A stretch of 64,000 nucleotides of DNA from Stereum hirsutum FP-91666 SS1 (Eukaryota > Basidiomycota > Agaricomycetes > Russulales > Stereaceae). A program made the translations under genes and the position numbers. How positions within the stretch are numbered: the stretch's first letter is position 1; the number at the start of each line of letters is the position of its first letter. Under the pieces are notes generated by a model that was not told the origin of the DNA, made no database searches, and worked only from the letters and a program-made list of their open reading frames with translations. Positions 14,431-36,516 of this stretch are shown piece by piece. The stretch is taken from assembly GCF_000264905.1 (NCBI RefSeq), contig NW_006763146.1, positions 1,104,535 to 1,168,534 of the forward strand. Reading direction: 5' to 3'.

Positions 14431-18810
<4,380 letters not shown>

Positions 18811-19242
18811 GTTACCTGTTTGATAACGATTGGAGATATATTTTGTTGTTGTAATGAAGTGAGCAGAGAAAGTGGAAATTGAGAGTTGAGACGCGTCGCG
18901 AGTCGCGACCCAACGCGTGTCTGACATAATACCCTAACCTAGGGCTGCCACGTCAAACTTTGCTTCCGTCTGCTTCCGTCCATAACTGGATTTTGCTTAA
19001 CCTCCACCTCAACCAACTGATGGCTGAGGATCATCCAATGTATTGCTGCTTCTTTAACGACCATACATCGTATATCAGACTGAGTATATCCAATATTTTT
19101 GGAGTGTCCTGAGTTCGATCACTTGTCGCGAAGCTACAATGGAATCATCGAATCTTATCTCAAGGGAACGACTGTCTTCCCGTCCTTAGGTCTGACTGTG
19201 GGAGACTAATGCAAACCCCGTCCATATCTTCAGCCCATTTAT
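18811..19242. promoter_or_regulatory. MSH2 upstream region truncated by the transposon
   Basis: This 432-bp stretch lies between the MSH2 ATG and the target-site duplication. An in-frame upstream extension exists on the minus strand, but its conservation cannot be judged. No TATA box is obvious. Confidence 0.4.
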
Positions 19243-19249
19243 CTATGTC
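19243..19249 (+). repeat. Target-site duplication, left copy (CTATGTC)
   Basis: This 7-bp direct repeat abuts the first base of the left TIR. The same seven bases directly follow the right TIR at 33070-33076. Confidence 0.9.
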
Positions 19250-19680
19250 CACCTGGATGACACTGATAAGAAGCCTAGTTAGACTCGGGTGGCATGTCAT
19301 GGCGCCCGAGTCTAACAAGGCTTGGATCGGGCCGGATCTTCGCCTTCGACCTCGCCTTCGTATCCCTTCCTCTTCTTCACTACCAGCTCACTGCCTCGGG
19401 ACCTCCTCCGTCGTCATCATCGGAAAGATCCCGACGCCCCTCCCTCCGACTTCCCCCTCCCTCAGCCTGGGCCCTTGACGCAAGACCTTGTCCCTCGAGC
19501 CTCTGCCGCCGGCTGCCCGCCAGACAACTCGCTCTGCGCCGCCGTTCACGATGCGCCACACACCCTCCGCTCCCTCTGCCTTTCGCGTCTATGTAGCATA
19601 ATCTCTTGTAGGCCTCTTGTCGAGTATATTAATACATCTTGTTTCTCTGGATTTTGTACTGTCCGCATGCACTGATGTGT
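19250..19680 (+). repeat. Left terminal inverted repeat of the KDZ element
   Basis: It starts CACCTGGATGACACTGATAA. Bases 19250-19621 match the reverse complement of 32701-33069 almost perfectly; the one difference I see is a 3-base insertion near 19526. Similarity then falls to roughly three-quarters up to about 19680. ORFs reading through the repeat have no domain and appear twice only because the repeat does. Confidence 0.92.
19271..19323. repeat. Hairpin palindrome inside the left TIR
   Basis: Arms 19271-19289 (AAGCCTAGTTAGACTCGGG) and 19305-19323 pair over 19 bp with one mismatch around a 15-nt loop. It lies 21 bp from the element tip. Confidence 0.85.
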
Positions 19681-20014
19681 TGTTGTCACTCGCCAACCCC
19701 GCTGTACTGTGGTGTTCAAGTGGCGTGTACCCTGTGTGCGAGGGCTCTCTTTGCAACCTCCGACTAGTCAAACACTCTGGAAGTACATCATGCAACAAAT
19801 CTAGAGAGTTGGCTGCATCTGTGTGTGTCTTTAACCTCTCAATGACATGTAGATCCATCAGTGGGTGTAAGTGCTCTGGGCCACAGTGCCACACGAGACA
19901 TCGAGCCACCAGTGGGCTAATTGCCTCGTCGTGTGGTCCAATTCCAGGCTATCACTCTGGGACTACAACCCATAGATATATTTTTACGGGAGGAAAGCAG
20001 TATTCTAGACTACT
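19681..20014. other. Subterminal non-coding stretch of the element, left side
   Basis: These 334 bp between the left TIR and the stop of the HMG-like gene carry the 17-mer and several GTGTGG/CCACAC words. No ORF is supported. Confidence 0.5.
19884..19900 (+). repeat. Subterminal 17-mer, left
   Basis: CAGTGCCACACGAGACA recurs exactly at 32533-32549 in direct orientation. Related words (CCACAC, GTGTGG) occur nearby. A transposase-binding site is possible but unproven. Confidence 0.5.
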
Positions 20015-21538
20015 CTATCCACTCGAAGTAATTCCCTCGCCCATATGCTCATCGGGAACTGTCTCTTGGCTAGTCGGCGTCTTCCTCTTCTTTGACCTCG
20101 ACTTTGACGACCCCGCACTCTTGTTCGCAGCCTCCTTTACAGCTTCATTCGCTTTCTTCCTCGCCTTCTTCGTCTGAGCTGAAACACCACTCACACGCAT
20201 CTCGTCTTGTGCCGCCTTCCACTCAACATCAGACAGCTCCCTCCAGTGAACTCTACCATGCGTTACATCGTAATGCAGGTTCTTGTACTCGTCGATGTGG
20301 CGGAACTGGTTGGGATTGATGAGATCGCCACTCTCAGTCCTCTGGTCGAGAGGATAACCGACGAGCTCGAGACCGTGTTCTGCGCGAAATTGCCGATACT
20401 TCTTGTACGCTATCTGTGTTGGTGCGTCCTCGCTAGATTTGTCGGGATTCTTCTGGAGCCAAAGGACTCCTGGGTAATAAATGAGTGTTGTATACACAGA
20501 GGCTCGCCAATGGATTACTCACTGAACAGGTCACGAATCGTACAAACGATTTGTGACTTGTAAGCCGCCTTCTTTCCGTCCGCACCGGTTGCTGCCAATG
20601 CACCTACGCAAGATATGATCAAAACAGTTTGTTTATGGTTGTCCTCGGAAAGGTACGTACCTTCTACTCCAGATATGATGAAACCTTCGGCCTTCAAGAC
20701 GAGCTTGTCGAAGGTACCCTTGGTGACAGCAAGCATGGCCTGACGCATAGCAGGAGAGGCACTAACCAACGCGGGGAAGTTATCCATAGCGATACGTTTG
20801 CAGACCACAACGGCGTATTCCATTTCAGCCCTCTCGAAACACCCTGAAAGCTAAGATTGAAGTACAGTAAATGTATCTTCAATTTCTAGATTTAAGCGGT
20901 GCAAGACGTACCTCCCTATCCACAGTCTCGAAGGTATGTTGTATATCAGCCTGAACCTGATTCTCGCTCACCCACTTCACCCGAGGTTTTGCAAGCGCAT
21001 CACGATGCTTCTTGAGCGCTTCCAGCTCAGCCTCTCGTTCTTCTTCATCCTGCTCTTCGGTGTCCATTTGCGCTGCAGCTTCTTTCGCGAGTGCCGCGAG
21101 CGCGTCACGTCCTAGAACTTGGCCTACAGGTATGTCTTCGTATCAGCAAGCTCAATATAGACACCACATTGAGCACAGAAACTCACCATTCTCTTTCGCT
21201 GCTTTGCTAAGGGCATGGACCTTCGCGTTGAACGCGTTCGGAGCGCGTGTCTTCTTCTGATATCCATCGGTGACCAAGCGCTTGACATGTATCTCATTTC
21301 TTTAGAACCTCATACTTCGTGAGTTGTACCTATTATTATAAAATATTAAAGTAACTCACATCCCTAGACGTTCTGCAAGTGCAGCGGTCTCTAGCTGCAC
21401 CAGGTCCCTGATCTTATCAATACCCTCGTGCAACTCCTTGGTAGATTTTTTAGCTGCCTCCTTCGACGCGTAATTTCGCTTGCCTTTCTTCTTCGGAGGA
21501 AGGACCGAGATATTCACGTTCTGGGAGGGAGGATCCAT
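20015..21538 (-). CDS. Transposon-borne basic protein with an HMG-box-like segment
   Basis: Six exons (21360-21538, 21187-21299, 20912-21123, 20661-20850, 20523-20603, 20015-20469) join in frame to 409 residues. After a Lys-rich start (MDPPSQNVNISVLPPKKKGK), residues ~65-100 read KKTRAPNAFNAKVHALSKAA, which resembles helix 1 of an HMG box or YABBY-type DNA-binding fold. An acidic coiled-coil-like stretch (TEEQDEEEREAELEALKKH) follows, then a conserved-looking domain with CKRIAMDNFPALVS and AEGFIISGVE. The C-terminus is a Lys/Ser-rich nuclear-type tail (SKSRSKKRK). It is the most promoter-distal of five collinear genes in the element. I infer a DNA- or chromatin-binding accessory factor for the transposon. 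The HMG call rests on pattern only and should be modelled. Confidence 0.75.
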
Positions 21539-21802
21539 GGAGCAGCGAACGATGGACAGCACAAGGAGGTGGTTTGGGCTGACTAAACAGCAGGCAGAGG
21601 TAGCACGCATCGGAGTCGGGCTCTCAAATCCTGGGCTTTTCAAATACCTTGACAGTCTTTGGGGATGGATGAGTGGCACCATAATAAATACCAGTAGACG
21701 CATATTTAAATAAACCAGTAGCTGAATATTTAGATACACGACTGTATCTTTAGGATGGACACACAGACGAACAAGACAGAAAAAAATATGATTGTGCTAC
21801 GT

Positions 21803-23723
21803 TTAAACCGAGTCCTTCACAAGTTCCGCCACCTGCGCCTGCTCTTGCTCGACCAACCACCTTCGATCATCCAGCAAAGTCTCCGGTGTGGAAAGAAGAT
21901 CCCAGCCCTCCTTCCACCGAAGCTCAGCATCTCCGTCAAGTTCCCTTCGCTGATCCTCCGAGAGTGTACACGCCGGTACGAAACCATGACGGACCCACCG
22001 ATAGAGCCCACCTGGGCAGAACTGCGTGATGCTGTAACGAGACTCCCCCTCACGAATCGGGATGTTGCAGTGCCGGATGCTGGCGGAGGAAAGAACTATC
22101 GTTGATCCAGGAGGAAACCGAATGACGAGCTTGAGGTCCTCCAGGACAAGATGCCCGCCCTTGTCGGGGTCGAAGTTACCAGCCGAGGTAATTTCACAGG
22201 GGACGCGAGGGCAATTGCCGGGGTCGGTGTGGAACTTCGTTACTGTGGATGGGCCGAGATTCAAACCACAGGCGGGGTAGACGCTACGACCGGGGAAGTT
22301 CATCTTGAGCTCCGGTTGATTCTTGCAAATCGCGTCCATGTTTGTCTTGAGTTCGTGATAGATGAGGGGATAGTGTGCGGCCAACAGCTCTGCAACCCTG
22401 CGTTAGACACATGATTGAGTGTGAAGGAAAAGGAAGAGTACTCACCATTTTGAAAGGCCACGATGCGGTGAATGTCGTGGTTGCTCAACAACTCGTCGAC
22501 CATGGGCATCTGTGACGACTTGTGGCTCAGAGTGAGAGGAGTCTGGAAGACTTGGAATGAGCCGAGGAAAGCGAAATCGACAGAACGAGAAAGGGACGCA
22601 CCTTCGCCCCACTGCCACGCGTGATACCGATACTCTTGGAATAATATGGACCACGGCGATTCTCTTTCTCCTTCGAAGAGAAGGTGGAACCATACCGCTG
22701 GCGAATATCCTCGAGGAATTCCGCCAGACGCTTGTGGCCCGCGTCCCACGTCTTCGACGGGTCCTGATTGGCAGGATCGACCGGTTTGCCGCCACAAACG
22801 ATCGCAATCTTTTTCGAGGAGTCAAGAATTTGCGTAGTTGTACTTGAAGTGTGTGTTAGCCAGCCGAAAGAAGAAAGAAGGAGAGAAAAAGAAACGCACA
22901 TTCCATCGAAAGCAAAATACGAATAACGCTTCTTGGCTGCGCTCGCCAAGGTGACAGACACATCGGCCTTCACCTTATTCTTCGAACACCCCTTCCCCTT
23001 CTTCGCTGAACCTCCAATTTTGCCGGTATCGCCTCCGCTGACCGCGCCAAAGTCCATGACGCTGAAGTCTCCGGACACGAAATGGGACTCTGCGTGCCGA
23101 CCAATGAAAGCCTCACCATGAATAGGCAACCCACCCTCCCTTCTCCTCTCTGCAATATCCTCTCTCTTCTTCTTGTCCTTTCTTGCTCGATTAGCAGCCC
23201 TTGCGCTGGGGCTACGCGCACGCTTCGACGGAATCGACGAGCCTTCATCTTGAAGTCTGGACCGCGAGTCGGGCGGTACAGAGGAAGGGGGAGATGTGTT
23301 TGGCGAGGGTAGGGTAACGTGGTTGAACTGGGAGCCGGAGAATGATGTCGGTAAGAGGATCCGGCCGGCAAAGAGAGACTGAACATCGGGTTCAACAGTG
23401 TCGTCGTCTTCGAGATCGGAGAGGTCTTCATCCAACTGGGTGTCGGTGGTGGCGTCGAGAAGAGGGCTAGCCGGCGGGGTTGCGAATGGGCTTTGCGGCG
23501 GGTCGAAATCGGGGAGGTCGTCCTCGTCGATGTCATCTGCAGGCTCAGATCGGAGGTCATTGGGGTCTTCGCTGGCCTCCCTCTCACCCTCCATGTCATC
23601 GCGCTGATGGGCATGCCTCCAAGCGGCTTGGTAGTCAAAGCTCGTTCGCAGAAGTACAGGCGGGGGTCCGAACTGCTGGCCAGCATGAGCAGGTGCTCGG
23701 GGGCGCAGGAAGTAAGGTTTCAT
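21803..23723 (-). CDS. TET/JBP-family 2-oxoglutarate/Fe(II) dioxygenase
   Basis: Exons 22900-23723, 22602-22842, 22446-22542 and 21803-22389 join in frame to 582 residues. The first ~240 residues are disordered and acidic with basic clusters (SKRARSPSARAANRARKDKK). A domain with KTWDAGHKRLAEFLEDIR follows, then the catalytic double-stranded beta-helix. There TKFHTDPGNCP supplies the iron ligands HxD, GGHLVLEDLKLVIRFPPGS forms core strands, and SIRHCNIPIREGESRYSITQ supplies the distal His and the 2-oxoglutarate-binding Arg. This order and wording match fungal TET/JBP proteins, known or predicted to oxidise 5-methylcytosine or thymine in DNA; a Coprinopsis member is a proven 5mC oxidase. Every key residue is present, so activity is plausible. 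The 784 bp upstream carries three palindromic repeats. Inference: it counters methylation of the element. Confidence 0.93.
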
Positions 23724-23780
23724 CCTTCCCGAAAAAAAGAAATAAGTAAGAAACCGTCTTTTGGAATGTCGGAAAGAAAA

Positions 23781-23860
23781 GTGAAGTGGAAATGTGATGG
23801 GCTTGCCGTCGTGTCGGAGCCAGGTAGCCTCATTCACGACGGTTTGCACCAAGAACAAAA
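23781..23860. repeat. 80-bp palindromic repeat, copy 1
   Basis: This is the first of two abutting 80-bp units upstream of the TET/JBP start. Each contains CCGTCGTG...CACGACGG arms (23806-23813 and 23835-23842) around a ~21-nt loop. Confidence 0.85.
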
Positions 23861-23940
23861 GTGAAGCGGCAATGTGATGGGCTTGCCGTCGTGTCGGAGC
23901 CAGGTAGCCTCATTCACGACGGTTCGCACCAAAAACACTA
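23861..23940. repeat. 80-bp palindromic repeat, copy 2
   Basis: This is an exact-length tandem copy of 23781-23860 with only a few substitutions, mostly at the ends. The hairpin arms are intact. Confidence 0.85.
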
Positions 23941-24080
23941 GCCTGGCAAGGAGAGAAAGTAAGATGTATCGAACGCACCGTGAAAATGATGTTCGAAAAG
24001 CCCACGGGGCTGCAAAGAGAATCAGATATTGTCAGTGGGGCGCTCACCGCGAAGAACGATGAACAAGGTGAGCCTAAGCG

Positions 24081-24150
24081 AATGCCGTAACATTTGATGA
24101 ACTCGCCGTCGCGTCGGAGCCTGGGAAGCCTCATTCACGACGGCTTATAG
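24081..24150. repeat. Palindromic repeat, diverged copy 3
   Basis: The core CGCCGTCGCGTCGGAGCC...CCTCATTCACGACGG recurs with substitutions. The arms still pair apart from one compensable change. It lies about 220 bp beyond copy 2. Confidence 0.75.
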
Positions 24151-24507
24151 GGTGCTTCGAAAGAAGAAGAAAAAACAGAGGAGATATTGAGGGACTCACC
24201 GCGATGATTTGCAGAGTATTTGGTGAGGTTCAGAGACGACGCGGGGGTCAAGGGGGAAAAGCAAGGGAAGATAACGAAAATTGAAGCCAGCGCGACCGGT
24301 ATCCGGCCGCGCCGGATTATATTAGTCAGCGGTGCCACTTAGTGGCCCTGCAGGAATAAGAGCCTCCAAGGTGTTCGGGTTGCTGCTGATGTGTGCACAC
24401 ATAAGAATAAATCATAATTGTCCTCTATTACTGGACCAAACCGTCAAAGCAGAGATAAAAAAAGAAAGAGGGAAGAACCGCAGACATAAACTTGCCACAA
24501 GGCATTC

Positions 24508-25776
24508 CTATATAAACATACCCAACTTCGGGTACACCCTATGAAACTCGCGTGTGTTCATACTGTAAAAATAGCGGGTTAGGAGACTTTGAAGGCCATG
24601 AAACTCAGTTACATACCTTCTCTTGTCATCAAAAATGAGGATGTGATCCTCAGCCGCTGCCCAAAACGCTGCCATGCCTTGCTGAAGAAGGTCAATGAGC
24701 TGGTGGTACCCTGCGACCTGACGACACAGCTGCAAGTGCAGGCCCCTGTCCTTCAGGCTGCAGACTTCGGTGAACTTCTCCACCCTCTCGACCATATCGG
24801 CGTGCTTCTTACAGATGTCGTCGTAGAGTTCTTGGGGGCCTTTCATCTTTGGGAACTTCGTACGTCGCTTCGAGGGGTCGTTACCAGCGAATGAAGAAGG
24901 ATGGGTGTGCCGGAGTCCGACTAGTTGTGCCACAAGCAAATGGTTTTCGAGCTCCATCATCGGGTCGATATCATCTTGCAAAGTGACGAAAGCTTCCTTC
25001 ATCGCAATCTTGGGCGGATCATAAATACTGTGGAGAGGACACAGGAACGTACATGAGTAACACAATAGCCTAAGAACCAGAGAGAAACACTACATACCAG
25101 CGTTCACCGTTCCACTCACGAAGGCGGATCGCCTTTAATTCCTCTAATCGTGCTGCTCCGACCTTGCGACGGGGACGCATCTTCTCCCAATAATGCTCAA
25201 AGTTCCGGCTGCTTGTGCGGACGAAGTCGTAGTACTCTTTGAACTTCGTCGTCCGGACTCGGTTGTCTAGTTCAGGCCTTGTAAACCGCGATGATAAGTA
25301 AACCATTCTAGATTAAGCGCAAAAAAAACGTAGGCAAGAAAGTTGGACACAAAAAAGTGGATCAAGACAGGGACTTACGCGTTCGGATTGGCCCAATATT
25401 CTTCTGCGTTCACAGGATACGTTTCGTCAAAGTTGAGCGCGTTGAGGTCAGGGTCCTTATGGGGTGCAACCGTGTACTTTCCCTTCCTCGCCGGTGAGTT
25501 CAACCACTGCTCTACAGCCCACTCATCGTATACCTCGGCTGCACTCTTCTCATCATGAAACCATGGCTTGGGTTTCGTTGTGACCGTAACAATGTCGTCC
25601 TTTGCGTATGGCTTCTGAACCAGAGACGGACTAGCTGGAGCTCTCTGGCCTATAGCAGGCATGCTCTGGCGCGGCCTCCTCAAAGGAGCACGAAGATGAG
25701 GTGCTGCCAGAGGCGAGGGTAGAACACCTCTGGAGCGAGAGTTGCTAGTAGGTGTCTTTGAGGTATCTTTGGGCAT
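24508..25776 (-). CDS. Transposon-borne protein of unknown function
   Basis: Exons 25379-25776, 25098-25307, 24617-25027 and 24508-24562 join in frame to 357 residues. The first ~60 residues are basic and Ser/Pro-rich (MPKDTSKTPTSNSRSRG). The rest is mainly helical with charged residues, including EVYDEWAVEQWLN, FRHYWEKMR-like FEHYWEKMRPRRK, and a long amphipathic stretch ending AAFWAAAEDHILIFDD. I do not recognise a family, see no metal-binding or catalytic motif, and see no signal peptide or membrane segment. It lies between the TET/JBP and RNase-H1-N-like genes with the same orientation and intact splicing, so it appears to be maintained as part of the element. A structural or regulatory partner of the transposase or dioxygenase is possible. 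Confidence 0.75.
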
Positions 25777-26932
25777 GATAGGCCAGGTGTACTGCGGGAG
25801 ACAGAACGATGGGGACAAAAATTGCCACGACGATAAGGACGCAACAAGGAGCGGAGTGTCGGAGTCAGAGAATGGAAGTTGCCGATGTAGTACAAGCTGG
25901 CGAGGGTGAGATCAAGGTCGACGAGTTTGTTGACCACAAGAAATAAAACACTGAGTAGAAGCAGCAACCGAGAGGCCCAAGACATGTAGAATAACACCAA
26001 AGTTCAGGCTAAGTTACCACAAGAGCTCATCAGGGGAAAGTGGAGGAAATATTGTGTAGCCATGCGAAATGGCGAAGTGGCGGTGGTCGCACTCAGCGTT
26101 CCCGACATCAAAAACAATGTCCAGGAGGAGTTCACATCATCCTAAAAACGAGAAAATATTTGTATGAGTTGATTTCATGTATATAAAAAGAGCTGTAACT
26201 TATTTATCAAAGCTGTAATATGTGCCGATATGAAAGTGCACAAAAGAGACCTGAAGACGTTCAAGTTTAGTATTGCGCACAAGAACCTCTTCCTCCGAAC
26301 CTACTGTTCGAGCACATCTAAAGCAGCTTTTTATCCCACTGCACAAAAACTTATGGAGTCAACATATTTGCATGCCCGGTCAGAATAGAGGTTGTAGAAC
26401 GGAAAAATCTCACATACTTGTCGAGTTATGAAGTGAGGAAGAATGGTGGGAACCGAACGTACTCACGCTGTCCAACGCAATGCCGTCATGAGAGCATACC
26501 GCTTTGTAATGTGTCCCATTATATCTCAAGATATGTTAGTGCTATGAGTTCCATATAATCAATACTCTATAAAACAGTGAGTGACATGAACTTCGTATTC
26601 CGAGCAATAATCATCGTTCAGAGTAAGTGTCTGCCCAAGCCCCTATTCTCGGGATCTGCATAAGTTGCTGTGGCGCGAAGGTCTGAGGGCCACACTTTGC
26701 AAACAGCTTTCATTTGCCGTCAATTCTCATTCTCGCACAACTACTGCAAATTATTCAGACCATATTCAAGAAAGGCATGGAATTCAGAGACGTAATCTCG
26801 TAAAGATCATGAGGGACATTAAAAAAAACGGGCCACACCACTGAGATGATTTCGGACAATTCAGTTTCACTACGAGGGGAAAAAATATAACAACAGTCGA
26901 CATCCTTTGACCCAACCGAGATCATCCACCAC
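25777..26932. other. 1.16-kb non-coding spacer inside the element
   Basis: This is AT-richer than its flanks, with no supported ORF in either direction. It must hold the promoter of the 25776 gene and the 3' end of the 26933 gene. It is the longest gap in the transposon and could be a decayed gene or regulatory DNA. Confidence 0.5.
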
Positions 26933-28618
26933 CTACGTTGTCCTCCGCACAAATCCTCTAGCCATCCCGTACCAATACCATCGGATCGCAGCTTCATAGT
27001 CAGAGAAGATTTCGACTTCGGGGCCTCCTTGAACACGGGTGATCTGTTCATAGACGTCGTTCCTGTGTGAAAGTTAGCAATAACATCTGAGGAATGAAAA
27101 GAAACATACAGGGATGGAGATCAACTTACATTGAGCTATAGATACCGGGGACACGGCCGACATATACAACCCACCAGTGACTTCCATAGTACTGTACAGG
27201 AGGACGAGGAGGTGGGGGCAACACACGAATCGGCGGAAGATGTCCTAGCGGCGTCTCGTGCTGAGAGTTAACAGCTCGCTGCCACTCATCAAGCCCCGAC
27301 GCTGTGGTATCATGAACGCGGTGGAACTCTGGATTGTATGGAGAGGGGAATCCTTGGTGAGCTTCAATATTGGCCCGCCATGTGTCCCATGTCGCTGACT
27401 GAATACCCGGATTAACGCTGACCGTACTGATATACTGGTTGATCTGGCCACTGCCTGAAGCACACTCGTCAGGCCGAAGAGGAAACACTGTATGATCAAA
27501 AGGAGGGAGCGGCTGCATGCCAGGCGGAATTGGGACGATGGGATGCTGGTGGTACCAGGGGAGCGAGCTAACGTCAGCGGGTGCAGGGGAGCGGGATGAC
27601 GATGAGGGAGTGTTTGATCCATAGCGAGCAGAGGAAGGAGCGGCGGTAGGAGTACTGGGAGAACGGGCTGTGGATAATTGTGGCTGAGTGAGCTGTGGAC
27701 GAGTTGGCGAGGTGATATTTGAACTAGAGGAGCCGGGGGCTGGACGAGTGGGCAATGACGGGCCATATATCTCTCCACCGAAATAACGGGCAGGTTGCGA
27801 TGATGATGCAGAAATACTATGTGCAACCATCGCACGCCGAACCCTACTGATATTGGTCGTAGGTGTACTGGAGACACGGGACGTTGAAGGCGAGAGGGTC
27901 GATCTGGTATGAGTTACACCACGAGTCGGCGTCGCCGGGGAGGTAGCTGTGGACGGTGTGACTGGTGCACGAGGTGACTCAAGGATGGGTGTAGTGTGGC
28001 GACTGGGTGTACGAGGCGCTGGTGCAGGAGGTGCAGGAGGTGTGGGGCGAGCGGGAGGGGGCGGGTCATAATCAGGATCGGGAGAAGCTTGATATGACCC
28101 TCCAATATTGTACTGGTCAGGATTGCTGCATTTTCCATCAAGATTAGCATGAAAGGTAGTCGGAAAAGACATTGAACTGCTTACAAGATACGGATAATCT
28201 CATCCCGATCACACCAGACACCATAGAGGCCACTGACACGGTACAACTCCGAGCGAGAGCGGCGAGCTGAACCACTGGGAGGCTGAGGCTGAGCAACGTT
28301 CTGAGAGCTTATCTCAGCCGCTGTGCTCATTTAAGGGATGATGAGCAAAGAAAATTTCGAAAATAATACAGAAAAGAACATACTGTTCGGAGCTGGATCT
28401 ATATTTTCTAGCTCCTCATCAGTGACACTACCATCTCCCCCATCGGCAGTAGACTGCTGTGATGCTTCTTGAAACTTTAGCATCTCTTGCTCGATGAGGT
28501 CGTCGTAGTACGCGTCTATCTGATCTCGAAGCAATTCGTCGTAGGTCGGCGCCTCGATATCTGAGAGCTCGTCCTCATCATCCGAGGCAGCCTTACCCTT
28601 GCCCTTCATATTCCCCAT
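26933..28618 (-). CDS. Transposon-borne acidic/proline-rich protein with a C-terminal RNase-H1-N-like module
   Basis: Exons 28384-28618, 28185-28320, 27130-28125 and 26933-27062 join in frame to 498 residues. The order is an acidic N-terminus (DDEDELSDIEAPTYDELL), a short segment ELYRVSGLYGVWCDRDEIIR, and about 270 disordered residues rich in Pro, Ser and Thr. The C-terminal module starts HWWVVYVGRVPGIYSS and continues after an intron with NDVYEQITRVQGGPEVEIF, FSDYEAAIRWY. That pattern (Tyr-Val-Val-x-x-Gly-Arg-x-x-Gly-Ile-Tyr, then Gly, then Glu-Ala-A) is the RNase H1 N-terminal fold, which binds RNA/DNA hybrids or double-stranded RNA. No RNase H catalytic domain follows. YRVSGLYGVW may be a second, degenerate copy of the same module. 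Inference: a nucleic-acid-binding accessory protein of the element. The fold call needs structure prediction. Confidence 0.75.
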
Positions 28619-28815
28619 AGCTGGGAGCAGGCCGAGAGGTGATGGAGGAAAGATAAGAGAGTGCTGAGTTGACCCTCAATTCCGCATGCTCTAACCAAGT
28701 CGGAGTTCGAACATGATGTGCATAAACGGGCCGGCCGTGAGAAAGGTGCCACCACCCATATCCATACGCCCAACATACGCCCACTATGGTAGCAACCAGA
28801 TCACAATAAAATACA

Positions 28816-31800
28816 TCAATCTTGAATGTTAAAACTCTCGAACTGTGTGGCCAAACGAGCTGCATCATCACGACAGGCTTCTCTCTCTAATTCACGGGCT
28901 GCTGCTTCCCCTTCGCCCGCATCTACCGAAGTCTTTCCCTTGCCCAGTGCCTCAACCATATCCTTGCTCCATCCCATCGGTGTTCCTGATCCACCTTGTC
29001 CTGTGAATCCAGTCAGTCCCTCGATTGTGTTGAGGATGCTATGGTGGTTATTGTTGATGGCCTGGCGTCGGTTGTACTGCTCCCGGACCTCTGCAGCAAA
29101 AATGGTTTCATGACGAGTGGATAGACCGTTAATCGCATCTTCGTACGCCTTTGCATCGGCGAGAAGCCAGGTTCGAAGGCGGCGCATCTCAAGGTTGAGG
29201 CGATCGAGTTCCTCTTCAGCTCGTACAACTTTGAAGAGCCTGTTACAGACTAGTCGGTTAGCTGGCGACATCCAAGGCTTTTGTAGGATCTCGGTATCGC
29301 CATATGATTGTCGTAAGAGATCGAATTCAGCGACAAATGTAAGCTCCATGATCTTCTGTATATCTAATATTTCAGCGGGAGGGTTCATCTTGACGGCGAG
29401 GGCGTTATAATTGTTGAGAGCCGTTCGAATAGCTTGGCTGCGCGTGTTCAGATGTGCCCATACATTTTTGCGAACATTATAGCCTAGAGAGGTCTCGAGT
29501 TAGTTATAGCATATTTTGATGAAGGAATAGATATGAGCATACTCATGCCGGGGACATTTGCCTTCTGCAGCTCGAAAAGCCGCTGAACAACGAGACCTTG
29601 CAGCTTGTTCAGGGCCTGGTAGAAGTCTCGTTTCTTGATGTACTCCTCGATCTCCTTGTACTTCGGATCTGTAGGCTCCCACCGCTTTGCCACCTTCAAT
29701 CTAAACTCGAAGTCGAAGACAGCTTGTTGGTGTAGAAGGAAGCGGCTCATGGCGAGCTCACGTTTGCGCTCTGCCTTGTTTGTTGCTGCAGCATCGGCGC
29801 CGTATGATACACCTGGAGTCCAGTTAGTTATCCGGAGATCTGAACGTGTCGTCTGGTATGCTTGGCTATATGTCTATAAGTTACCGGCAGTGCTAAGACA
29901 AACGTGAGAAAATAGACTTACTCTGCAGCAGACATCTCCTTGAGCTCCTTGAGGTACCCACACTCAAGAGTCCTCTCCGTCGACTCGCCCGATGTCTTCG
30001 ACCTCAAATATGCAAGCTCCTCTTGAATCCATCCTTGAACGGTATCGCGGTCCAGGTCAAGACGTCGAAGTTCTCGGTCAACTTCTGGGGAGTACTCGAG
30101 AATGGTTCTGAGGGCTTGACGGTAATTGTTGAGCAAGAAGATAGCTTTCGAATAATTTAGTGACTGGACTGTAGGACTAGAGGTAAGGGACATACAAAGA
30201 TTGGAGTACTTATCCTCGTCCCACTGCTGAAAGTGAAGGTCATATGCCTGAAGCCAGTGAAAACGAGATGCACTTCGGACGAGGGGTGCAACAAGATTTG
30301 AAAGTGAGAATATGCGTTCCATCCCCTCTAAATCTTCCAACCCAAAGCCGAGAGTATAAAGTGGGTGATACTCAAGTTGGCAGGTCCGATTGTGCGCCCA
30401 TCCATGAAATGCATTGACTAGGATGTGGAGCTTCTGTTCTGTGGCGACTGGCCCAACAAGGCGGCTCGACTGGACTGTGGCGCTGAACGAACAGCCAATA
30501 TCAAAGCCCAAGACATTGTCGGGATCGAGGTGCGTCCTCAAGAAGTCGGACACGATGGCTAGAGGATATTTTGCACTAGAAATATATTGTCAGAAAAGAG
30601 CGGACAACAGACAGAAGATACTCACAGTTCGCCACTTCGAACCATCTCACAGAATTTCAAAATGAGGCCATGGCGGCAGGCACCACCGAAGATACCTGTC
30701 TGATCCCAGCACGACAGGCTGACCTTCGTCGACTCTGGCGCTGCTGCCTTCCAGTTCTTACTGCAGTGGCTGGTCACACCATGCTCGCCGTCGGTTGGAT
30801 CACCTTGTGGGTCGGAGGTATAAGCCTCGGGAAGGGGGTCCTCAATCTATTCAAGTTGAACGTTAGGTGATTTCTCAACGAACAAGAAATTCCTTCCCTA
30901 CCTCGTTTGCTTCTCCATCATCAACTTCAGCAGGTGTATAGCGGCTCTTGACCTCATCCTTAAATATATCCACCTGTTCTCGAGTAAGGAAGTAGTCGGT
31001 TTTGAAGTCTCGATCGTCTTGTAGTGCTGCAGACATGAAGCGTTTGGCGGAGTTGTTTCCGTCGACGACGAACATACGAGAGAAAACTAGTTTCTTCTCA
31101 TCCTCAAGCTTGTCAAGACCCTCAATATGTAGTATGTGACAGTGTGAAAGTGGACGAGTGCGAACCTTAAAGCAGCAGCAAGGACATGAATTCTTGATGC
31201 GCCAATCCTGGTCATCTCTGCCCAATACTACCCGTATCCGTTCGTCTACCTTTCGTAGAATTTGCAGGTATGCATCAAAGGCAATGGAAAACTGATCTCG
31301 CATATGAGCTTTGTATTGAACCTTGGATGCTTGTGTCAGTGGACCTACTCGTCACAGAGTAGTACACTGAGGCAAACTTGGCGTACCTTTTGAAGATCAC
31401 AAAGTGCACGAACAAATGGCAAGATACCATACCTCGAGAACCGTCGGCGCAAGCGATAGTACAGCTCAAGCACTTCTAGCTCAATGGCAATCGTAGGCTC
31501 TACTGGAGATGTTCCGAGAAAGCCTATTTGAATGAGCGCCTGGTTTACGGATTGCTCGGGCTGCTGGATAACAATAATCTGTTCTCGGGCTTGAGGCACA
31601 GTCAGAAATTTAAAGAAGAGTGTGCACGTATATACTGAGGACCTACAGCGTTCACGGACAGTAGTGCAATAAAATGATGTGGGCGATTGCAAAGGAGTGC
31701 CACTGGGTGGCGATGTGAGGTTAGATGTCGGCTGATCAGAGACCGAAGCAGCGTCAGAAGAAAGGGAGTCTTTCTGCTCATTGGTGTCATGCTTGAACTT

Positions 31801-32465
31801 GAGGTATGCATCGGCCAAGTCTTCTATCTGGTTGTCCCAGTTGGATTGGAGGGCCTGAATGCGATCGCGGCGATTGATGGATTGTCCACGTTTGAGAAAA
31901 CGGCGCATACTATTCACAAATAATTGAAAATTGTAGTCAGTTACAGTGAAGCACGACAAGATAAATAAGCAAATATACTTGTTCGTTGATGTCATGAGTG
32001 AGAATGTCCTCTGCGCCACACTAACATTTGGGCCGTACTCTCCTCCAGCATGCGATATCTCCTGCACGTTGCCACCAAACTCTTCATTATCTGTATCGGA
32101 CCAATATTCATCGTCCTCGTCCTCTACTTCGTCACTGTGGTATCGAGCCACGTCTTCATAATCGATGTCCATGGGGATCGGTTCTGCCTCGTCGTTGTTG
32201 GGTATGATTGAATTAAAGGCATCAAGCATTGCAGCTGGAACATCTGGCAGAAATAAAGCTGTAATCAGAGGCTATCGTAGAACATAAATCAAGAAAAATT
32301 ACGGTGAAATCCTTGCTCGCGATGTAATAAAGCCTCTTTCTCCTCCCGAGCGAGCCGGCTAAGAGACTTGACTACATCCTTGCTGGTAGTAGCACGCCGG
32401 CCAGGAGTGTAGCTTCTGATAGGTTTAGATCTCTTGATTTTTGCGTGGCTATAACGCGAGCTCAT
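28816..32465 (-). CDS. KDZ-superfamily transposase, intact
   Basis: Eleven exons (32303-32465, 31979-32258, 31647-31909, 31387-31589, 31166-31321, 30902-31120, 30626-30846, 30196-30575, 29922-30144, 29543-29865, 28816-29483) give 1,032 residues without a stop. Landmarks are an acidic N-terminus, a Cys-cluster (NSCPCCCFK), and the RNase-H-fold catalytic core. The core has FVVDGNNSAKR (first Asp), CWDQTGIFGGACRHG, LGFDIGC (second Asp), FHGWAHNRTCQ and GLEDLEGMERIFS (Glu). The C-terminal half is long and helical, with LNKLQGLVVQRLFELQ. These features are diagnostic of Kyakuja-Dileera-Zisupton transposases. One intron (29866-29921) needs the CATATAG acceptor to keep the frame. Its start codon lies about 180 bp inside the right TIR, so the TIR and subterminal region are its likely promoter. 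Confidence 0.95.
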
Positions 32466-32641
32466 TTTGTAACCAAGGGAGAGACACTGAAGGATACTAT
32501 AGTCTATTGTCTTGCAGGACCACGACTGTATCCAGTGCCACACGAGACAAGGACACACTCACTTAGATAATCAACAGTGATGGCTTACGCCACACATGCT
32601 CTTCCTGATACACACTGACATTTTTAAATGCCCCGTGAGCG
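32466..32641 (-). promoter_or_regulatory. Likely transposase promoter
   Basis: This short non-coding stretch between the transposase ATG and the diverged inner edge of the right TIR contains the 17-mer shared with the left end. Confidence 0.4.
32533..32549 (+). repeat. Subterminal 17-mer, right
   Basis: This is an exact copy of 19884-19900 in the same orientation, about 70 bp upstream of the transposase start codon. Confidence 0.5.
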
Positions 32642-33069
32642 AGACATCAGCGTGTGCAGACAGTAAGGAAACCAGAGAAACAATATGTATTAATCTATTC
32701 GACAAGAGGCCTACAAGAGATTATGCTACATAGACGCGAAAGGCAGAGGGAGCGGAGGGTGTGTGGCGCATCGTGAACGGCGGCGCAGAGCGAGTCTGGC
32801 GGGCAGCCGGCGGCAGAGGCTCGAGGGACAAGGTCTTGCGTCAAGGGCCCAGGCTGAGGGAGGGGGAAGTCGGAGGGAGGGGCGTCGGGATCTTTCCGAT
32901 GATGACGACGGAGGAGGTCCCGAGGCAGTGAGCTGGTAGTGAAGAAGAGGAAGGGATACGAAGGCGAGGTCGAAGGCGAAGATCCGGCCCGATCCAAGCC
33001 TTGTTAGACTCGGGCGCCATGACATGCCACCCGAGTCTAACTAGGCTTCTTATCAGTGTCATCCAGGTG
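32642..33069 (-). repeat. Right terminal inverted repeat of the KDZ element
   Basis: This is the inverted counterpart of 19250-19680. The outer 369 bp (32701-33069) are near-identical to the left copy, and the inner 60 bp are diverged. Confidence 0.92.
32996..33048. repeat. Hairpin palindrome inside the right TIR
   Basis: This is the mirror copy of the left-end hairpin, at the same 21-bp distance from the right tip. Confidence 0.85.
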
Positions 33070-33076
33070 CTATGTC
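33070..33076 (+). repeat. Target-site duplication, right copy (CTATGTC)
   Basis: This is identical in sequence and orientation to 19243-19249. The next base outward differs on each side, so the duplication is 7 bp, not 8. Confidence 0.9.
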
Positions 33077-33646
33077 GGTCTCATGCCCATCTTGGCACCC
33101 GTGTGTACAGACGCCGCGTAGTTCCTCCCGCAGCCTCTGAAGTGTAGTGGTGCAAAAGAGAGCGGCCTCTTGTCTCAATATTTTTTCCGTGCCCAACCTT
33201 GACGTTCTTCGGGGGGTTGTGGTCGGATCCGAGGCTAGGCATGCCTACATGTCTTAGAGCTTACTTGTATGTCCTCGTAACTCCGTTCCAGAAATGCAAT
33301 GGATACCTTGTCACTCTTATTTTAACGTTGGCCGAAACATCGCCGATCACTCCATCGAACGTCGTTCCAGTCCTTCAACCAGTATGATGCGAATTACACG
33401 GCGACACACGAAATAATCTCTCATTGTTCAATGGTATGTATGATTCGGGAGGATTCTATGAATCAACTGAAAGCATAAATGAGGGTGAAGTAGTTTAAAG
33501 TATACCGTCATAAATAATCAATAGTGATCAATAGCGATGGTGTTCGGAGGCAAATGGGGGGACGAAATGGTGAAAGTCCATGTAAAAATCGAACCAGAGA
33601 AAGGTTCAGGAAAATTGTCACATCAGATGGACCGTGTTCTACGATC
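33077..33646. other. Intergenic, right flank of the transposon
   Basis: These 570 bp lie between the target-site duplication and the stop codon of the DUF3433-like gene. No gene, RNA or further transposon end is seen. Confidence 0.55.
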
Positions 33647-36516
33647 TCAGCTCTGACCTGCTCTGCCCGAGCTTCCAAAGAACGACTTCCTCCAATTTGG
33701 ACTCTTCGAGAACGGATACTCAGGCTCACCCTCCATCACAATCTTATTTGTGACAGGGTTGATCCTGAACTTCCTATCTCGAAGCGCCTTGTAAAGGTCC
33801 TCTCGGCGTTGCTGGCCATCGAGAAGGGCGGCTGTACCGGTGGAGGCAGTGAATGACGCCGCGGAGGCCAGGGTTCCTGGCTGGTGTAGGAGACGGAGGT
33901 CTTGCCGAGAGCGTTTATGGAGGAGTTGAACAACGACAGTGAATAGGCTGAGCGTGAGCATCCCAGCGGAGAGGAGGTGTACGGCGATGTCACTGAGGAA
34001 TGGCGGTGAGTTGCCTTTTCACTGCCAGTCTGAGAAAGCAAATACCTCATCGTGAGCCTCTTCTGGGTGGTGGATATCCGGACATTGATTGGCTCGTTAT
34101 CCTCAACGAAGTACACAAGCTTCGCCAACATCGCAAGGTATGTCCTCTGAAACACTACCAGTAAGACCATAACGCCCACGCACTGAGACCAAAAGCAAGT
34201 TTGAAAAAATACACTCACATAAACCGTCGCCGACAGCTCCGCGAACGAATTATTCGCAAACGCAGCAGTAAGTCCCTGCTGGCTCTGTTCCGCACTCTGA
34301 AACACAGCAGCGGGCAACTGCAACTGAATCGCCGTCGCCCTTGCATTCACGAACGGATCCGACACCAACTGATTTGCCGTCCAGTTCAATCCATTATACG
34401 CCCTCCCGTCCAGTGGATCGCCCGTTACGTTCCCTGCGAACTGCGTGAAGTTTTCCTCGCCGGCCGTCACGTTTCCCAGAGTGGTCACGGATGTGAGGTT
34501 CGACGAGCCGAGATCGACAGCAATGGCGACATTTTGGACCTGGATTGTGGGCGCGCAAAGTGTGACGGAGGCAGCGGCAGCAGGCTCATATGTGAAGAAC
34601 CAGAAGATGACGGGCATGAAGGCTGGGTCGGAGGAGTCGAAGGCGGAGCAGTCGGGCATGATTTCGGCGCCGAAGAGGTGTACTGAGGATTTGTTGACTT
34701 CCCAGGTGAAGTTACAGCCGCTGAAGACTGCGCTGTTAGTCCAACCTTGGGCATCGGCATGCTGCAACATGTTCACATAGCCCTGTAATTGATAGCATTG
34801 AGCGTTAGACTCAAAAGGGGGTTTCTTGAGCAAGTAGGAGTAACATACGTTGTTGTCGGGTTCTCGGCATCCTGGATCGGTGAAAATGGCGGTGGTATTG
34901 GCAGTTAGATTTCCGGTGTTTGCGACATCGTAAGGAAGCTGTGTATTGTATGAAAGATCGTGTTACTCATTGAACCGGTTTTACACTGCTAAAGATCAGG
35001 AGACTGACCTCTATTTCCCCGACAGTGAAGCCGTTATGCACAAAAGGTGTGTCTCCCAGATTGTACAAAATCGATGAAGAGGCATAACCAGAGGCACCTA
35101 GGAATGCTACAAGAGACCGTTCATCATCAGTAATCACACTATATGTTGAGTATACGACATACAAGTCAAGTCTTGATACTGCTGGTTTTGATTGAGACCG
35201 ATCGCTTGCAGGTTGGTAACATTCCGGTCTATAGAATGGGACGTAAGTATGGTCTTTCAAATATGACAAACGACGAGGAAATGATATACCAGGTAAAGTG
35301 AGGTAGGTGTCTTTGATGGTGAATACGGCGGCAGAGAGTGGTTGAAAGGCGAGGCAGAGAAGAACCATAAGGGAGGTGAGAATCACTAGCCAGTGCCTGT
35401 TGAAATAAGCACCCCAGAGAACCAAGGCTGAGCTGTCGGTGAGAGACATAGGTCAGCATGAAATCCATTAACAAGGTATGCCGGATACATACTGCCGTCG
35501 GGTGTAGTCCAGCAGAAGACTACTTTGACCAGGGGCATCGCCTTGAACGAGGTCAACATAAGGCTAATAACGAGACCAGTTCAGCATTATATAGGTGCTG
35601 AGCGTAAGAGAATGCCTCATACCTGCAGACGTTTGATTTCCATATCCGTCCATGTCCAAAGGCCAACGATGATCATTGCCACGCCCACCGGGGGAAGAGT
35701 CTGTCGAGCGAAATCAGAACCACCAAATCGACATCGCCTAAGAAACAAGAACCTTACATAGACATAATGCAATATGCCCTCCTCAGATGAGAATGAGGCG
35801 CTCGTAGCCCATCCTGGGAAGCGCAGAAAGAACGTGAGCGTGGGTTGGGAGCCGAGGCTTGGAAAGGACGCGTCTCACCATGCTTGCGATGACTGAAGCT
35901 CAGCGCAACTTCCAGTGTAATTGCCCCTGCCACTAGTACACAGACGAAAGGAACCCAGAACCAAGTCTTCAGCGGTGTTGGAGTCCATGCGTCCTGATCA
36001 GTGGTGGCTGTAGCACCGGAGAAAGCGAACGGTCGCCGGGAATATATTGAGAAAAGGATCGGTTTCATCAAATATTAGATCGCCGAGTTGTCAGTGGAAG
36101 CGCTGGATCGAAGCACGTGAAGGTAATGACGACGACACGCACCGTTGGGAATGGGAGCGTAGCGCGTGGGTTGGTCGTCGTAAGGGTTGTAGAGGATGAA
36201 TCTCTCTGGGTCACTCTCTATAGAGAGAGGGACAATGTGTCAGGCAATCTGTCCGTGAGGGGAATGCTATGTTCATACCAGGAGCCTCCACAAAGCGCTG
36301 ATCAAGACGAGCAGATGGTGGTTGAATACTCGAGTTACAGTGATAAGCTCGGAGAAAACATACTGTTTGATATTCCCCATCATACTCCAAATCTGTAGAG
36401 GAACCCGCAAACTTGTCTGTAACCTGAGATACCGCCACCCGTGGTGATGCCGCGCGGGAGTCGGGAGAGAGGAAGGGACGATCTGACATCGCGGAGAAGG
36501 GGGGTGTTGTAGTCAT
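33647..36516 (-). CDS. DUF3433-like multi-pass membrane protein
   Basis: This is a multi-exon gene from the ATG at 36516 (MTTTPPFSAMSDRPF) to the stop at 33647. After a disordered cytosolic N-terminus come a membrane helix (FWVPFVCVLVAGAITLEVAL), a second around LPPVGVAMIIVGLWTW, and the sequence WTDMEIKRLQPYVDLVQG. A third helix follows within HWLVILTSLMVLLCLAFQP, then a large ectodomain with several N-glycosylation sites and paired cysteines, a last helix (LLSAGMLTLSLFTVVVQLL), and a basic C-terminal tail. A Trp-x3-Asp-x3-Arg-x-Gln-Pro-Tyr motif between the two N-terminal helices is characteristic of the fungal DUF3433 family, whose function is unknown. It probably sits in the plasma or vacuolar membrane. 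The 3' end is about 570 bp from the transposon. Exon limits were traced by frame but not all fixed to the base. Confidence 0.75.

Follow-up and report, generated by a model that had tools for sequence, protein, structure and literature searches.

The DNA analysed here is a stretch of 64,000 nucleotides, the window, from Stereum hirsutum FP-91666 SS1 (GCF_000264905.1, contig NW_006763146.1, positions 1,104,535-1,168,534 of the forward strand). Positions 19250-33069 of the window are a bounded DNA transposon of 13,820 bp that was inserted as a unit and that carries a KDZ transposase gene together with a gene for a predicted TET/JBP-like dioxygenase. The genome that we searched comprises 45,982,361 bases on 38 contigs, and the window corresponds to C16:1104535-1168534. 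The features of the element, including its terminal inverted repeats (TIRs) and its target-site duplication (TSD), are the following.

19243..19249, no strand: left TSD, CTATGTC (direct comparison of flanks)
19250..19678, plus strand: left TIR, 429 bp, whose outer 372 bp equal the right arm save for a 3-bp gap
19271..19323, no strand: palindrome in the left TIR, putative transposase binding sites (inverted-repeat and covariation analysis)
20015..21610, minus strand: G5, predicted gene (splice model; one exon searched)
21803..23723, minus strand: TET/JBP-like dioxygenase gene, catalytic exon 21803-22389 (splice model, alignment, predicted fold)
24508..25776, minus strand: G3, predicted gene (model start about 25776-25985, set by hand at the ATG near 25776; C-terminal exon with relatives)
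26755..28330, minus strand: G2, predicted proline-rich gene (splice model; one relative, at C21:375940)
28331..32597, minus strand: KDZ transposase gene model (PF18758 in three exons; the last exons past 28857 and the first small exon are uncertain)
32644..33069, minus strand: right TIR, 426 bp (alignment to the left arm)
32996..33048, no strand: palindrome in the right TIR (inverted-repeat analysis)
33070..33076, no strand: right TSD, CTATGTC (direct comparison of flanks)

The two copies of the TSD match in 7/7 bases, and the element's tips read CACCTGG...CCAGGTG, that is, they are CA..TG ends. Among the 7-bp direct repeats within 17001-35500 that lie 5-16 kb apart around the genes, the CTATGTC pair stands alone, with 20/20 inverted tip bases and a score of 18, compared to 12/20 and a score of 13 for the runner-up. 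The outer TIR arms (19250-19621 and 32701-33069, 372 and 369 bp) differ by one 3-bp gap only. A sequence-only reading of this DNA had described the 13,820-bp unit, these outer arms and the 7-bp duplication correctly, but the arms are longer than it had them: homology extends inward to 19678 and 32644, giving 429 and 426 bp at 96.7% identity. The innermost stretch is clearly less similar than the outer arms, a step that suggests that the outer arms were homogenised. Arm identity is therefore no clock, and we rejected dating the insertion by it, since the near-identity ends at 372 bp. The same reading had held that the ends and the duplication prove that five genes move as one unit. They do establish a single inserted block, but they prove neither the reality of all five predicted genes nor continued mobility.

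Within each tip, columns 22-42 and 54-74 are inverted repeats of one another. Across four distinct ends 95.2% of the cells in this palindrome are paired, and 5 of 21 pairs have changed on both sides, a count that includes G-U pairs, which are meaningless in DNA. If the partner is slid by 1-3 columns as a control, at most one pair shows changes on both sides. Further pair types do not exceed shuffles (312/500), in a comparison of only four sequences. The DNA fold z of the palindrome is -7.5, -8.7 and -3.3 at three ends, and no known RNA family reaches the gathering threshold over 14000-38000. Because each arm is nearly palindromic itself (AGYCTARYTAGRCT), we read the palindrome as likely a pair of sites bound by a symmetric protein, with the transposase as the likely candidate; a cruciform is the alternative.

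Genes inside the element

All five gene models are open and lie on the minus strand. They come from a simple custom splice-model script and are predictions without transcript evidence. The transposase model carries the KDZ domain (PF18758) at 140.7 bits, against a curated Pfam cut-off of 26.6. Its residues D455, D607 and E665, which we infer to be the catalytic acids, are identical in 9/9, 8/9 and 9/9 KDZ models, respectively. A CxC1 match stays below the cut-off of 26.9 (20.4 bits, E 5.9e-4), and there is no CxC2 match. Between the window KDZ and a relative at C21, three exon pieces give 0.10-0.11 nonsynonymous substitutions per site (dN) and 0.70-1.57 synonymous ones (dS), which indicates that the transposase is under constraint.

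G2 (27126-28199) has a single further relative in this genome, at C21:375940-376746, which is 37% identical over 267 amino acids and is not accompanied by a KDZ or TET match. For G3 the protein collection searched contains no relative at E <= 0.001, and the single G5 exon that was searched has none in the genome.

By fold and by residues, the element's other enzyme is predicted to be an intact TET/JBP-type dioxygenase. In the frame of exon 3, H58, D60 and H111 are invariant in 13/13 aligned sequences from this genome (window included; excluded were the C21, C4 and C11 matches and L044, whose frame is interrupted by a stop), and R122 is nearly invariant. A search with the predicted fold places CcTet first (E 8.3e-5), and 11 of the 12 chains of the Protein Data Bank (PDB) at E <= 0.001 are CcTet. 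Together with the PF18758 match, these residues and this fold model bear out the sequence-only reading, which had named a KDZ transposase and a TET/JBP enzyme with its catalytic residues. At the level of sequence, the family is distant from the known profiles: Tet_JBP (PF12851) is weakly matched by 6/13 family members (best 5.8e-4) and genome-wide by one match below the cut-off; a second domain scan left out L012. PDB sequence searches with the family returned no CcTet chain, several giving no rows or only unrelated ones. Counting by spacing from the HxD histidine, without aligning the CcTet sequence itself, Gly331 of CcTet corresponds to Asn63 and Asp337 to Cys69, both invariant in 13/13 sequences. 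Given these residues the substrate may differ. The related C2-C14 pair of TET genes shows strong purifying selection (dN 0.057, dS 1.22); for the window-C3 pair dN is 0.27 and dS is saturated. The TET gene is flanked on its 5' side by an 80-bp tandem duplication (23774-23937, 94%), with a third partial copy at about 24092-24143.

Related ends and loci in the same genome

The exact tip pattern occurs at nine places in the genome, which are both ends of the window element, the ends of three shorter elements and one end at C21:65849. Five further matches have 2-3 mismatches. As a reversed control pattern, too, matches four times with three or fewer mismatches, we counted exact matches only. The shorter elements are the following.

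Short element C16: 4,089 bp, perfect 7-bp TSD CTTGTGA, assembly gap of 2,903 N inside
Short element C17: 5,065 bp, perfect 7-bp TSD AGCGTGG, gap-free
Short element C3: 3,192 bp, no TSD, assembly gap of 1,990 N inside

Perfect 7-bp TSDs are thus present in three of the four elements with paired tips (window, C16, C17). The gaps hide the content of the C16 and C3 elements. The gap-free C17 element has no frame longer than 171 amino acids, shows no transposase and resembles the window element in its TIR tips only. It is likely that the shorter elements used the same ends as the window element. The end at C21:65849 is a diverged relative that shares about 76% of its outer 130 bp with the window TIR; it adjoins a KDZ gene 61.8% identical to the window KDZ model, and the opposite end would fall in an assembly gap.

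KDZ matches number at least 36 at no fewer than 16 places and TET matches at least 18 at no fewer than 17 places, all of these counts being lower bounds, and several TET places have no nearby KDZ match. At seven loci outside the window a KDZ gene and a TET gene of the same family as the window's lie within 3 kb of each other. The other TET places (C3, C7, C28, C24 with two, C23:336k, C23:462k, C4 and C11) have no KDZ match within 5 kb and were left out of the comparison. In all seven loci TET is upstream of KDZ, whereas in the window it is downstream, and about 7.5 kb separate the coding matches of the two genes. All 5/5 partner KDZ genes scanned (C14 and C23:297k were left out) contain a strong CxC2 cluster (116-155 bits), which is missing from the window KDZ.

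The two genes also differ in how far the window stands from these loci. In the KDZ core the window is 21-23% identical to the other seven, which fall into two clades that are 42-51% identical to each other; the averages are 22% and 46%. For TET they are 39% from window to others and 42% from clade to clade. The contrast is reversed in none of 2,000 bootstraps. It is also seen in gap-free columns, where KDZ identity between the clades is 36% in the core and 43% overall, compared to 19-21% and 16-19% to the window, while TET identity is 43% between the clades and 45% and 41% to the window. In addition, the C-terminal exon of G3 matches five other places, three of them 1.9-2.6 kb from a TET gene (C9, C23:536k and C21:40k), all three being among the seven KDZ-TET loci. 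At C23:536k and C21:40k the G3 relative is upstream of TET on the same strand. The sequences of the G3 places C35 and C8 were not fetched.

We also looked for ends at other TET loci. At C2, C3 and C7 the highest scores in scans for 7-bp TSDs were 11.5, 13 and 12.5; as the chance pair in the window already reaches 13, these candidates were rejected. C2 is the only CxC2-type locus whole enough to scan, and element ends were not found there. Near the C2 and C7 TET loci there are inverted repeat pairs of 288 bp (L071, C2:1448765-1450065, 96.5%) and 410 bp (L069, C7:2074336-2075817, 91%), which are perhaps further small TIR elements. The TET gene closest to the window's, with 66-67% identity, is L068 (C3:302124-304015). 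No match to the window KDZ lies in the surrounding 16 kb examined, and L068 is a solitary gene, perhaps domesticated or a remnant.

To the left of the element, on the minus strand, is a MutS-family gene with domains I, II, IV and V (14731-18927), likely msh2. The element lies upstream of this gene, about 0.3-0.4 kb from the predicted start, and the insertion could affect its expression. Joining the flanks yields no long spanning frame (at most 85 amino acids), and hence no sign of a disrupted gene at the target. Between the MutS gene and the element, a sequence of about 55 bp (19154-19209) recurs at 11 other places in the genome (35-56 bp, 82-100%), with differing flanks in the three copies compared.

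Interpretation and its rivals

The reading that we prefer, and to which we give slightly more credence than doubt, is that of a complete KDZ transposon with long TIRs and a 7-bp TSD whose predicted TET/JBP dioxygenase likely oxidises 5-methylcytosine on the element's own DNA, and whose TET gene and part of G3 likely came as a cassette from another lineage. In this reading the KDZ transposase would recognise the palindrome in each TIR, excise the element and insert it with a 7-bp stagger, and it may do so to the present day. The dioxygenase would oxidise 5-methylcytosine on element DNA, and the element would thereby stay expressed and mobile. Such an anti-silencing role is plausible, and the host genome's eight C5-methyltransferase domain matches, all above the cut-off, make a methylated substrate plausible. 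The identities reported above suggest that TET and part of G3 were likely taken over from a distantly related KDZ lineage, in which both also co-occur. A more specific proposal is that the TET-like dioxygenase, of a type that profiles miss, and G3 form a two-gene anti-silencing cassette that travels between deeply separate KDZ lineages, namely the CxC2-type loci and the long-TIR element. We regard this as possible, but would not quite call it probable: that G3 shares just its C-terminal exon lowers the odds.

A number of results weigh against the preferred reading. The AlphaFold model of the dioxygenase has low confidence (pLDDT 67.8). In the VIA structure comparison gamma-carboxylase chains tie with CcTet in Z, over 77-104 residues compared to 144, and no Pfam model, Tet_JBP included, matches the window protein at E 0.1. 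The observed/expected ratio of CpG is 0.91 in the element and 1.02 and 0.95 in the flanks, so there is no methylation scar and no sign of past targeting. Absent CpG decay would fit an unmethylated, a protected or a young element and proves none of these. The short element C3 has no TSD. The sequence-only reading had pointed to other full copies and empty sites as a check. Searches of the 46 Mb of this genome, with the tips and with the flanks, found neither a second full-length copy nor an empty site (expected junction ...TTATCTATGTCGGTCTC...). The tips gave the nine exact matches; the 500 bp to the left and 501 bp to the right of the element each occur once, save for the repeat of about 55 bp on the left. 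As for the cassette, G3 resembles its relatives only weakly and over a short stretch (E 2e-7 to 7e-5), its N-terminal exon has no match elsewhere in the genome, and the copy at C9 is inverted relative to TET and has a stop inside. Across the eight loci KDZ and TET distances correlate (Mantel r 0.87, a value reached by 1/5,760 sampled permutations), in keeping with co-inheritance within the other two clades, and three groups are too few for the unrooted KDZ and TET trees to clash in shape.

One could also argue, from this correlation and from trees that are unable to clash, that no cassette was ever transferred: a single ancestral KDZ element would already have carried TET, the two genes would have descended together, and the window KDZ would be fast-evolving or rearranged. 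We consider this unlikely, though worth keeping in mind. Against it, the Pfam family model scores the window KDZ no worse than the others (139 bits per domain piece, which ranks second among 36 rows), and constraint acts on its C21 relative. The strong CxC2 cluster of the five partner genes scanned is missing from the window KDZ, and the gene order is different. Similarly unlikely in our view is a dioxygenase that is a passenger or a genome-wide modifier, acting on different bases or across the entire genome without specifically defending the element. The roughly 17 TET-like places, several of them with no KDZ match nearby, are in its favour, as are the Asn and Cys that might alter the substrate. 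The parts of Kojima 2025 (PMC12730594) that we draw on cite oxidised methylcytosine on Coprinopsis retrotransposons as well and suggest non-targeted action. Yet the gene is intact and lies inside exact transposon ends, and related TET pairs such as C2-C14 are under strong purifying selection. The element might instead be a dead remnant with non-functional genes, given that there is a single full copy and that the case is built on sequence. The five open gene models, the conserved predicted catalytic residues, the perfect TSD and the near-identical outer TIRs make us doubt this slightly more. Two of the short relatives contain assembly gaps and another gap adjoins the C21 relative, which could hint at an assembly artefact, which is very improbable for a window that has no N, a perfect TSD and related tips at other places.

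Now that the exact ends of a long-TIR KDZ element with a TET gene are defined, and shorter elements with matching tips are known, the idea of a TET-mediated escape can be put to the test. Any movement of the short elements would require the transposase of a partner, which raises the question of whether the partner's dioxygenase is required as well. Should the cassette transfer prove true, anti-silencing genes would be modules that fungal transposons can exchange.

Comparison with known elements and enzymes

Complete TET-carrying KDZ elements with 7-bp TSDs have been published, and an anti-silencing role has been proposed for them as an inference (Kojima 2025, PMC12730594, here and below for the parts used). 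The sequence-only reading was hence right that the linkage of KDZ and TET/JBP genes is established in mushroom genomes. The TET-carrying Kyakuja of Agaricomycetes are like the window element in that they combine a KDZ transposase and a TET/JBP gene in one element with a 7-bp TSD, CA..TG ends and the same proposed role. Two Laccaria Kyakuja families with such TSDs and ends are described without TIRs, whereas the window element has TIRs of 429 and 426 bp; other Kyakuja families may have them. Because of its TIRs we do not assign the window element to Kyakuja. In the same source, AG-type TET is defined by Asp at CcTet Asp337 and Gly or Ser at Gly331, and PE-type TET by HxE in place of HxD. The metal motif of the window enzyme is HTD, thus of the HxD and not of the PE type. 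For AG-type TET no transfer between superfamilies is reported there.

The KDZ elements KDZ1, KDZ2 and KDZ3 of Cryptococcus neoformans are likewise large (about 9-11 kb); their TIRs measure 139-241 bp and their TSDs 4-8 bp (PMC12810828, in the parts used). Their mobility has been observed. Their transposases have a CxC1 domain, where the window has just the sub-threshold match, and the word dioxygenase does not occur in the main text of that paper.

The enzyme itself is best compared with CcTet of Coprinopsis cinerea (PDB 7vpn, 8jkk, 7w5p; PMC11040006, used in part). CcTet is the best fold match and shares the HxD...H triad and, by position, the 2-oxoglutarate arginine. It differs in that the aligned part is only 15-18% identical and, by spacing, in the two positions where the window has Asn and Cys.

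Our literature search, which was of limited depth, met no long-TIR KDZ element with a TET gene, and we do not claim that none exists. The kind of element that we describe is already published. What sets this element apart are the long TIRs with their covarying palindrome and the possible transfer of a TET cassette between KDZ lineages.

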